A stretch of DNA of 64,000 nt, from positions 186,001 through 250,000 of the forward strand of contig NZ_JYKA01000001.1 in assembly GCF_001676875.1 (NCBI RefSeq), given 5' to 3'. Made by a program: the position numbers and the translations under genes. This document shows, in pieces, positions 1 to 1,759 of the stretch. The stretch is from Chromobacterium subtsugae (GTDB taxonomy: Bacteria; Pseudomonadota; Gammaproteobacteria; Burkholderiales; Chromobacteriaceae). The notes under the pieces are model-generated. The model was not told where the DNA came from and made no database searches. It saw only the letters and a program-made list of their open reading frames with translations. Every line of letters begins with the position of its first letter. The stretch's first letter is position 1.

Positions 1-362
1 ACCCAGAATTCGTTGCGGTACAGCGTCCGGTACAGCAGCTGATTGGACAGGTCCTCGATTTCCAGCAGGATTTCCATGCCGGTCTTGCCGGCGGCCGGCG
101 CGATCGAGCGGATCACGCCGTAATCCTCCAGGCTGGCCAGCAACTGGCGGATGCTGTCCGCCGACTGGCGCGGCAGCGCGCCCTGCACTTCCGCCTGGCT
201 GCAGCCCCGCCCCAGCCGCGCCACCAGTTCCGCCACTTCCGCCGCGCTGGCCTGGCCGGCGGACAGCTCCAATTCTTCGTCGCCGGCAGTCTTCACCACC
301 AGCGGCGACTGCGAAATCACTTCGCCGTTCAGGCAATAACGCGCTTCCGGTTGGTGGATCAC
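1..362 (-). CDS. RRE/PqqD-like N-terminal domain protein, partial (3' end outside window)
   Basis: An open frame runs from a GTG at 362-360 to the window edge with 120 codons visible and no stop. A GGAGGG ribosome site sits 8 nt before the GTG. No ATG fits between the upstream in-frame stop (459-461) and this codon. Residues 30-85 have the pattern of a small winged-helix PqqD-type recognition domain, with AELVARLGRG and SIRQLLASLEDYGVIRS separated by a short linker. After residue 95, the stretch MEILLEIEDLSNQLLYRTLYRNEFW-like segment (given here only in outline: LLYRTLYRNEFW at the end) resembles the start of heme-oxygenase-like diiron enzymes. The domain call is from pattern memory; the enzyme part is outside the window. 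A small peptide ORF lies 97 bp upstream on the same strand, suggesting a peptide-modifying role, which is inference. Confidence 0.6.
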   Translation of the reverse strand, partial: MIHQPEARYCLNGEVISQSPLVVKTAGDEELELSAGQASAAEVAELVARLGRGCSQAEVQGALPRQSADSIRQLLASLEDYGVIRSIAPAAGKTGMEILLEIEDLSNQLLYRTLYRNEFW

Positions 363-458
363 GTCGCTTCCCTCCCAGGACAGCCGGCCGCCGGCCAATC
401 CGGCGGCGCGGCAGTCCGGCAGACCGAGGGCCGCATCGCGACACCCCGGCCGGCCGGC

Positions 459-539
459 TTACAGGTGAACCGGCACCAGGACCGGACGCGGATTGCGGGG
501 TTTGACCACCACCACCGCCTCTTGCATGCTGGTTTGCAT
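459..539 (-). CDS. 26-residue peptide ORF, candidate RiPP precursor
   Basis: An ATG at 539-537 is preceded by AAGGAG with about 6 nt spacing, one of the better ribosome sites in the window. The ORF encodes 26 residues starting MQTSMQEAVVVV and ending KPRNPRPVLVPVHL, then TAA. The C-terminal half is rich in Pro, Arg, Val and His and has no Cys, Ser or Thr, so lanthipeptide or thiazole chemistry is unlikely. The next gene on the strand starts with a PqqD-like recognition domain, the usual partner of a modified-peptide precursor. The stop is in the same frame as that gene, 96 bp before its GTG, so this could also be a leader peptide or a 5' remnant of the larger gene. The function is not recognised. 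Confidence 0.5.
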   Translation of the reverse strand: MQTSMQEAVVVVKPRNPRPVLVPVHL

Positions 540-569
540 TTGGCTCTCCTTTGCTTGCGGAAAAGAAAC

Positions 570-588
570 AGCGCCTGGCTCAGGCGCT
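570..588. other. Stable hairpin upstream of the small peptide ORF
   Basis: AGCGCCTG and CAGGCGCT pair around a 3-nt loop, with A-rich sequence on the left and TTTCTT on the right. The layout is terminator-like on the + strand. On the minus strand it lies about 20 nt before the ribosome site of the 26-codon ORF, where it could act as an attenuator. No further support is visible. Confidence 0.4.
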
Positions 589-751
589 TTCTTATCTTAT
601 GCCTGACAGTCCGCCTCAGAAATATCAAATACCTGTCATAAATAACTGTTTTTAAACAGATTTAACCTACCGCGCCAGCCAAAACCTGCCGGCAGCAGGC
701 CGCGCGCGTCTCTCCCCCCTGCCTGCCAGCGCGCCGCTCATCCGCATCGAC

Positions 752-919: not shown

Positions 920-1759
920 ATGAACCTGTTCCAACGCGCAGCCGCGCCGCTAGCCATCAGCCGCAACAACCTCGGCCCCTTGGCCGAACTGGCCGGCAAC
1001 TGGGTAGGCCACGGCTACAACATGATCGCGGTGCCCGACCACCAAAACCACAAGCCTTTTCGCCTGATCGTCAACGCCACCAAGGAAACGCTGGCCTTCA
1101 CCCCGATAGGCGGCCCGGTGCCGAATCGCGGCTCGCTGCAAAACGACATCGACATCTTCGGCCTCACCTATCTGCAACAGGTCAACGACGCCGCCACCGA
1201 CGAAGGCATTCACATCGAACCCGGCATCTGGCTGCATGTGCCCGCCACCAGCGACCCGAAAAAACCCGCCACCATCGTGCGCCAATCCACCATCCCGCAT
1301 GGCGATTCGCTACTGGCAGGGGGAGAAAGCTCCTGTGAAAAGCGCGCTCCCCACATCGCGCCGGCCAGCACCGAACCCCATCGGGTGGATGGCAAGCCGT
1401 TGCCATTCGGCTATACCGATCCCTACCAGAACGGCAAGTTTCCTCCCGGCTTCGACATGAAAAACCCCAACCAGGCGCTGGTGGACGTGCTGCAATACCA
1501 GCAGCAGCAGCTGGAGTTGAAGGTGGTCGAAACCATCAACCTGAAGGTCAGCACCAACGATGCCGGCGGCATCACCAACATTCCCTTCATCGTCAAGAAT
1601 GCCAACGCCACCCACATGGACGCCATTTTCTGGATTGAAACCGTCCAGCGCCCCGACGGCTCGCAGTTCATGCAGTTGCAGTACACGCAGACCGTGCTGC
1701 TGGTATTCGAGGAAATCGTCTGGCCGCACGTCTCGGTCGCCACGCTGCTCAAGCGCTAG
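920..1759 (+). CDS. Lipocalin/heme-binding-like conserved protein
   Basis: The protein has 279 residues. ATG is preceded by AGGGAGA at a good distance. The N-terminal motif LGPLAELAGNWVGHGYN resembles the opening strand of nitrobindin/FABP-like beta-barrels (LGPLA.LLGTW.G.G). The C-terminal third (THMDAIFWIETVQ and QFMQLQYTQTVLLVFE) looks like alternating beta strands closing a barrel. There is no signal peptide or transmembrane segment, so it is probably cytoplasmic. Similar proteins are often called heme-binding, but no heme ligand can be assigned here. It has its own promoter and converges on vioE, so a role in violacein synthesis is not implied by position. Confidence 0.5.
   Translation: MNLFQRAAAPLAISRNNLGPLAELAGNWVGHGYNMIAVPDHQNHKPFRLIVNATKETLAFTPIGGPVPNRGSLQNDIDIFGLTYLQQVNDAATDEGIHIEPGIWLHVPATSDPKKPATIVRQSTIPHGDSLLAGGESSCEKRAPHIAPASTEPHRVDGKPLPFGYTDPYQNGKFPPGFDMKNPNQALVDVLQYQQQQLELKVVETINLKVSTNDAGGITNIPFIVKNANATHMDAIFWIETVQRPDGSQFMQLQYTQTVLLVFEEIVWPHVSVATLLKR

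Follow-up and report, generated by a model that had tools for sequence, protein, structure and literature searches.

The DNA analyzed here, referred to as the window, is a stretch of 64,000 nucleotides from Chromobacterium subtsugae (contig NZ_JYKA01000001.1 of RefSeq assembly GCF_001676875.1; G000:C1:186001-250000), at whose left edge lies the locus of a 26-residue peptide. The peptide gene opens an operon on the minus strand that runs leftward out of the window in the order peptide, A, B, C, D, E, F. Genes A, B, and C encode oxidases of the heme-oxygenase-like dimetal oxidase (HDO) family, and A begins with a winged domain that weakly resembles the recognition elements (RREs) of enzymes acting on ribosomally synthesized and post-translationally modified peptides (RiPPs). 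The leftward DNA was read as L003 (G000:C1:172001-190000), such that a window position equals the L003 position minus 14000. The features, in order of transcription, are as follows:

Window 561-588, minus strand: leader element, a hairpin at 570-588 and then GTTTCTTTT; terminator-like
Window 544-551, minus strand: ribosome-binding site AAGGAGAG of the peptide gene, before its ATG (direct reading)
Window 459-539 (L003 14459-14539), minus strand: precursor-like peptide gene, 26 aa, MQTSMQEAVVVVKPRNPRPVLVPVHL (open reading frame [ORF] with ribosome site; orthologue before A in 12 of 12 loci; codon changes)
Window 363-458, minus strand: 96-nt gap from the peptide stop to gene A, with a GC-rich hairpin
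L003 13373-14362 (G000:C1:185373-186362), minus strand: gene A, RRE-like winged domain plus heme-oxygenase-like oxidase, 329 aa
Window 1-362, minus strand: the portion of gene A inside the window, its first 120 codons
L003 12356-13357, minus strand: gene B, heme-oxygenase-like oxidase
L003 10834-12330, minus strand: gene C, heme-oxygenase-like oxidase
L003 9600-10859, minus strand: gene D, class III aminotransferase, start picked by comparison
L003 8680-9603, minus strand: gene E, EamA exporter
L003 8246-8683, minus strand: gene F, GNAT acetyltransferase

The initial annotation had singled out a small ORF with a good ribosome site, a hairpin just upstream and a larger gene downstream, and all of these are present: AAGGAGAG precedes the ATG, the hairpin lies at window 570-588, and 96 nt separate the peptide stop from the likely start of A, a GTG at window 362 with a GGGAGGG ribosome site. 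Its combination of a peptide with an oxidative enzyme also stood, but the operon is larger than described there, with three HDOs, an aminotransferase, an exporter and a GNAT acetyltransferase. Junctions between the later genes are short or overlapping, and the peptide, the three HDOs and the aminotransferase form a compact cassette of ~6.3 kb.

Conservation of the peptide gene

Comparable loci were found by a pattern scan of genome contigs and by tblastn of A against plasmids (four records matched); the scan patterns came from one protein and reach close relatives only, and the 12 loci retained are a lower bound. They comprise seven in Chromobacterium and one each in Paraburkholderia silvatlantica, Robbsia andropogonis, a Legionellales metagenome-assembled genome (MAG), Tistrella mobilis and Rhodococcus gordoniae. 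An orthologue of the peptide stands before A in all 12, and its C-terminus is -HL throughout (-VHL in 11, -MHL in one). Specifically, the C. sphagni peptide is identical to MQTSMQEAVVVVKPRNPRPVLVPVHL, those of C. alkanivorans, two C. haemolyticum genomes and G013 read MQASTQEAVVVVKPRNPRPVLVPVHL, and that of G012 reads MQTKVQEAVVVVKPRNPRPVLVPVHL. The peptide is MSQTTTQQPVILVKPRNTRPVLIPVHL in Paraburkholderia, MSQATTKQPVIVVKPRNPRPVLIPVHL in Robbsia and MTITKKKRTIVAVAVHL, or six residues longer, in Rhodococcus, and it ends in IVVVKPHAKRPILIPMHL in the Legionellales MAG (where the start is uncertain) and in RPATQEKPVLIAVHL in Tistrella. The Rhodococcus ORF was found by an upstream ribosome-site scan without the motif, the Tistrella ORF by using the motif. 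The other six Chromobacterium loci likewise have a ribosome site AAGGAG(AG) before their peptide gene (AAGGAG in G012).

As a control, all ORFs of at least 15 aa on both strands of the 12 loci (222,740 bp) were considered: 15 of 2982 end in [AVIM]HL, a motif defined post hoc with the peptides already seen, and 12 of these 15 are the peptides, one per locus. Synonymous and nonsynonymous codon changes between our peptide and its relatives number 1 and 0 (C. sphagni), 7 and 2 (G012), and 4 and 2 (each of C. alkanivorans, the two C. haemolyticum genomes and G013), with the nonsynonymous changes in these six comparisons confined to codons 3-5; between Paraburkholderia and Robbsia they number 12 and 4. 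Nucleotide identity is higher in the peptide than in the following gap in five of five pairs (e.g., 67/84 vs. 52/80 and 62/81 vs. 31/81). These patterns indicate that the 26-codon ORF, whose conservation in relatives had been proposed as a check, is a real gene, and its pairing with the enzymes is well supported by the comparison.

The separation of A from the peptide by an upstream stop held in part. Among nine loci, the frame of A has a stop at or after the peptide stop in six; in the Legionellales MAG its stop falls inside the peptide region, and in both C. haemolyticum loci no stop interrupts it until beyond the peptide. In C. haemolyticum the peptide lies in another frame than A, whose start can still be recognised by a GTG preceded by a good ribosome site. 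The peptide has no NCBIfam match, and as a plasmid query it returned, past Robbsia, just three E. coli places (E 0.6, 1, and 8), which we dismissed as chance; the best of these carries no listed feature in an incomplete gene table.

Enzymes A, B, and C and the genes behind them

The heme-oxygenase-like character first proposed for A was borne out. Pfam PF14518 (Haem_oxygenas_2) matches A at 4.6e-11 (43.3 bits against a cut-off of 28.9, searched in a longer, TTG-start version), and B and C at 2e-6 and 2.2e-6 (28.1 bits, just under the cut-off). The AlphaFold2 model of A, built on an eight-row alignment, has a mean predicted local distance difference test (pLDDT) of 67.8, with parts of the catalytic domain <50, and a predicted template modeling score (pTM) of 0.53. 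It shows an N-terminal domain of four strands, three helices and one strand, followed by an all-helical domain, i.e., the winged domain and HDO-type fold for which structure prediction had been suggested as a check. Foldseek matched the model to 3dde (E 3.3e-5), TenA, CADD, UndA and BesC, with 19 of 556 matches at E <=0.001 and PqqC and PolF slightly above 0.001. As modelled, the catalytic part of A has a heme-oxygenase-like fold, and five profile searches of solved structures returned HDO-fold neighbours for A, B, and C, with nothing useful for the N-terminal domain of B.

The best sequence match of A in the Protein Data Bank (PDB) is MboA (E 0.0041), in which two irons are bound by Glu86, His89, Glu143, His172, Asp176 and His181 (PMC13185094). 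The A-MboA profile alignment matches E-x2-H-D, a Glu and H-x3-[N/D]-x4-H, and the aligned ligand positions in A are E178, H181, E234, H263, N267 and H272. In A, B, and C alike, E-x2-H, the Glu and both His of H-x3-N-x4-H are retained and an Asn aligns with MboA Asp176 (six of six A, six of six B and five of five intact C sequences; further Chromobacterium rows agree). Compared with the usual HDO set of three His and three carboxylates, one carboxylate is replaced by Asn in the sequence alignment. A mostly conserved Glu 35 residues N-terminal of E-x2-H might be a further or compensating ligand. A review of HDOs, in its text as available, gives 3His/3carboxylate and 3His/4carboxylate sets and one mononuclear case, and the words "Asn" and "asparagine" are absent from that text (PMC13108848).

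The N-terminal domain of A (~residues 7-90) is modelled with a winged bbbb-aaa-b topology, and residues 1-92 modelled alone reach a pLDDT of 78.5 and a pTM of 0.59. Six of the ten top PDB rows in a Foldseek search with this segment are TbtB (two), MadB (two), TigE and TruD (E 0.05 to 0.5), RiPP enzymes known to carry RREs; the models hint at an RRE-like domain.

Of the genes behind the oxidases, D belongs to the class III aminotransferases (2.2e-65), with PigE as its best NCBIfam model, below cut-off. E is a transporter of the EamA type that resembles the O-acetylserine/cysteine exporter family NF008523 (NCBIfam, 1.6e-52, below cut-off), and F is a GNAT acetyltransferase.

Variant clusters and distribution

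Eight of 19 Chromobacterium genomes match A at E <=0.001 and seven hold true A; the eighth, G017, has distant HDOs only. The A-B-C-D-E-F order recurs in six of the seven Chromobacterium clusters and in Paraburkholderia and Robbsia, and the C. sphagni contig stops inside D. In the Legionellales MAG, A is followed by a B that looks interrupted, by C, D and F, and finally by a frame that by eye resembles a major facilitator superfamily (MFS) carrier; the Rhodococcus cluster consists of A, B, an MFS gene and a GNAT gene. In Tistrella, the peptide is followed by a thiamine diphosphate (ThDP)-dependent enzyme gene, by a single 691-aa frame that combines A and B, and by C, with no D, E or F match in the 21 kb around the cluster. 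From these gene orders the shared core appears to be peptide, A and B, and the last two are suggested to work together because they are fused in Tistrella. A GNAT gene lies inside the cluster in 10 of 12 loci (the C. sphagni contig ends earlier, and none was seen by the Tistrella cluster), and three of the 12 loci, all from the plasmid-only search, are on plasmids. The RiPP-like layout described initially, with a tiny peptide before an RRE-like domain fused to an HDO, occurs repeatedly: several lineages of Proteobacteria and one actinobacterium have it, with the peptide following the distribution of the enzymes.

Searches of sampled genomes of the order (399 genomes, 1e-15), phylum (398, 1e-25) and class (369, 1e-25) matched the own genome only; these samples overlap and evidently missed genera where the cluster occurs. 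Phages gave no match, and none of the 62 stretches of viral contigs that fit a pattern was confirmed. By these searches the cluster is rare.

Several neighbouring genes and more distant relatives were recorded alongside. On Tistrella mobilis pTM3 (L045:8154-9911), the gene that separates the peptide from the fused A-B is of the acetolactate-synthase type (best model 443 bits, cut-off 587) and could be biosynthetic or a resistant copy of a target; a frame like an M20-type amidohydrolase lies, by eye, on the other side of the peptide. On the Robbsia andropogonis plasmid (L044:6078-7475), a gene divergent from the cluster has the MocR-like PdxR as its best NCBIfam model, below cut-off, and is a candidate regulator. 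The C. sphagni-like genome G016, whose A cluster lies elsewhere, holds a second multi-HDO cluster on C83 (L038:4717-10797). It comprises a 61-aa ORF with the C-terminus SALSVVGVIVK, a pair of HDO genes and a gene for a class III aminotransferase that is 36% identical to D across 220 residues; inspection by eye adds an aldehyde dehydrogenase and another HDO. Asp is kept in all three HDOs, and this is possibly a cousin pathway with another precursor. The fourth tblastn record, a plasmid of Enterobacter chuandaensis (L047:1050-9494), was left out of the 12 loci as a more distant cousin. There, the 15-aa ORF MKVTRRVIPVMNARL, ending -ARL, stands directly before the gene of an Asn-motif HDO, and the cluster also has an M14-family metallopeptidase, an aminotransferase, a second HDO and an MFS gene; of its two HDOs, one has Asp and one has Asn.

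On the other side of the operon, a divergently transcribed heme_bind_FMP-type gene (window 920-1759; NCBIfam 4.6e-89) separates it from the VioE gene (PF18234, 5.9e-98; minus strand), where the violacein region starts. An FMP-type gene adjoins A in C. sphagni too, at just 48% identity. In G017 (C18, L039:9314-10780), a lone C homologue, 63% identical, sits beside the FMP gene near VioE, has lost E-x2-H and H-x3-N-x4-H and is accompanied by no A or B match; its sequence suggests a remnant of the operon left at the violacein site.

Interpretation and rival explanations

We consider that this is a RiPP-type biosynthetic operon in which the peptide is the substrate, the HDOs modify its C-terminal end and the product is exported, and give this reading a probability of ~0.72. 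The observation from which it starts, made in the initial annotation, is confirmed, and its interpretation as a peptide-modification cluster is well supported. The genes, their conservation and co-occurrence, the enzyme families and the ligand motifs are directly established, and they place the peptide beside modifying enzymes; from these we infer its role as their substrate, its docking, the C-terminal reaction site, the order of steps and the product. Specifically, the 26-residue peptide would be a ribosomally made substrate whose middle (a VVVVKP-like conserved stretch) would dock as a beta strand on the N-terminal winged domain of the HDO enzymes, bringing the free C-terminal His-Leu to the iron site. 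The C-terminus would undergo an O2-dependent oxidation by A and B, which probably form a complex, and C and the pyridoxal phosphate (PLP)-dependent aminotransferase D would elaborate it where present, most simply through a carbonyl that becomes an amine. Housekeeping peptidases would free the modified end, either by itself or within a short peptide, for export by E (by an MFS carrier instead in Rhodococcus and, by eye, the Legionellales MAG), and F would acetylate the amine as a last step or for self-protection.

A C-terminal reaction site is proposed because the invariant free C-terminal Leu fits carboxylate-iron ligation as in MboA, whose substrate peptide ligates iron through its C-terminal carboxylate (PMC13185094); substrate ligates iron in all five structures named in the HDO review as available (AetD, UndA, HrmI, PolF and MboA; PMC13108848). 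The second half of the 26-residue peptide has no Cys, Ser or Thr, as first reported, and the chemistry then placed on Arg, Asn, Pro or Lys now seems less likely than chemistry at the C-terminal His-Leu, because the last residues are the most strictly conserved and substrate ligates iron in HDO structures. A carbonyl intermediate is suggested because an aminotransferase follows the oxidases, as in daptides, where RRE-dependent oxidative decarboxylation precedes transamination (PMC10036551), and a small secreted amine because an exporter and a GNAT are present.

A number of points weigh against this reading. No D match lies near the Rhodococcus or Tistrella clusters, because of which the aminotransferase step is apparently not universal, and the Rhodococcus cluster has no C gene. 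As for the recognition domain initially seen in A, the winged fold stands in the models, but there is no PqqD Pfam match, the models are shallow and no Foldseek match of this domain reaches E 0.001 (best E 0.054). The hhalign comparison of the A and B N-terminal domains gives E 0.016 and a probability of 2.9% (B vs. C: E 0.0086, 4.7%). None of the six genes A-F is a protease. Between our peptide and that of Paraburkholderia, in an alignment offset by one residue, there are 7 synonymous and 9 nonsynonymous changes, with the last four residues unchanged. Arrest leader peptides also typically have conserved C-termini, and the product and reaction are predictions from sequence.

If the peptide were a regulatory leader, i.e., a translated or ribosome-arresting upstream ORF controlling an HDO/aminotransferase operon whose true substrate is a free small molecule, its place as first ORF of the operon, its conserved C-terminus and the hairpins on either side would be accounted for. 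The leader hairpin (8 pairs, or 9 with one mismatch) is followed by a T-run just before the peptide's ribosome site, and 2 of 300 mononucleotide shuffles reach 9 pairs in the window, whereas in the 11 relatives 8 to 296 of 300 reach the stem found there. The post-peptide hairpin is beyond chance in the five loci outside Chromobacterium, where 0 to 2 of 300 shuffles match its stem; for the seven Chromobacterium loci, where 32 to 153 of 300 do so and the stem is at chance level, it is not used as evidence. In other RiPP operons a hairpin after the precursor gene fits a higher yield of precursor than of enzyme; the one here also fits a regulatory leader. On the contrary, the Tistrella peptide precedes the ThDP-enzyme gene, 1.9 kb before A, yet retains -KPVLIAVHL, the N-terminal domain of A resembles RRE-bearing enzymes, if weakly, and the gap is poorly conserved (31/81 aligned bases identical between our locus and Paraburkholderia). 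We regard a leader as unlikely. An Rfam search of the 5' leader gave a single match (E 0.54, far below the gathering score), dismissed as chance. Far less probable still is a chance or decaying ORF unrelated to the operon, as the ORF, for all its shortness and lack of an NCBIfam match, recurs before A in 12 of 12 loci with mostly synonymous changes between close relatives.

The RiPP-type reading itself includes a sub-case, overlapping it in probability, in which the peptide is a carrier only: the HDOs would turn the last one or two residues into a non-standard amino acid or dipeptide, to be cut off, exported and N-acetylated for self-protection, while the rest of the peptide is recycled. It is favoured by -HL being all that the 12 loci have in common, by the exporter family that E resembles, by the GNAT in 10 of them and by the metallopeptidase and -ARL ORF of the Enterobacter cousin; A-F lack a peptidase, however, and the present data equally fit a longer modified peptide. 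We hold this version as a tentative possibility.

Pyrroloquinoline quinone biosynthesis is a ribosomal peptide pathway that, as proposed here, uses both an RRE (PqqD) and an enzyme with the heme-oxygenase fold (PqqC), but PqqC needs no cofactor and works late, on a small molecule, unlike what is proposed for these HDOs. Among the matches listed from open-licence full-text literature the cluster is not described (subscription papers are mostly outside this body, so absence from print is not shown), and the nearest published cases there are VarO, MboA and daptides. VarO of the thiovarsolin pathway is likewise a heme-oxygenase-like enzyme in a ribosomal peptide pathway with an MFS gene and N-acetylated products, but that is a TfuA-YcaO cluster (PMC6511847); the thiovarsolin type was rejected, as A-F contain no YcaO or TfuA, and here there are instead several HDOs with their own winged domain, an aminotransferase and a tiny non-repeating precursor ending -VHL. 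In the mangotoxin pathway (MboA and its redox partner MboB), an HDO likewise works on the last residue of a peptide that binds iron through its carboxylate, but the peptide is built by ATP-grasp ligases rather than ribosomes, and MboA has Asp176 where A, B, and C have Asn (PMC13185094). The mbo type, which the gene order had seemed to match, was rejected, as A-F contain no ATP-grasp domain. Daptides share an RRE-dependent change at the extreme C-terminus followed by a class III aminotransferase, but with a C-terminal Thr, a decarboxylase like alcohol dehydrogenase (ADH) and a methyltransferase (PMC10036551); with a His-Leu end, HDOs, and no ADH or methyltransferase domain in A-F, membership was rejected. 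Anti-phage defence was also rejected, as none of the six proteins has a PADLOC match at E 0.001. The HDO terms looked for are absent from the RRE-Finder paper and a 2025 RRE paper, and the HDO review as available cites a single paper for ribosomal peptide modification (PMC13108848).

An HDO in a RiPP pathway and C-terminal transamination each have precedent, and their combination was not found among the open-licence papers listed; a new RiPP variant is probable. Also tentative is the fuller proposal of a new RiPP class, spread across phyla and plasmid-borne in the three records found on plasmids. In it, a pair of RRE-fused Asn-site HDOs would turn the His-Leu end of a carrier peptide of about 17 to 55 residues, itself discarded, into a small amine that is exported as an antimetabolite and neutralised by the producer's own acetyltransferase. 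If the pairing of peptide and enzymes is true, it would provide a genetically encoded substrate for HDO chemistry, which yields unusual groups (alkynes, nitriles, azetidines and alkenes), it would allow one to ask if an HDO site remains diiron when Asn stands in for Asp, and it would let further pathways be sought by their signature, an ORF with a -HL end ahead of an HDO gene.
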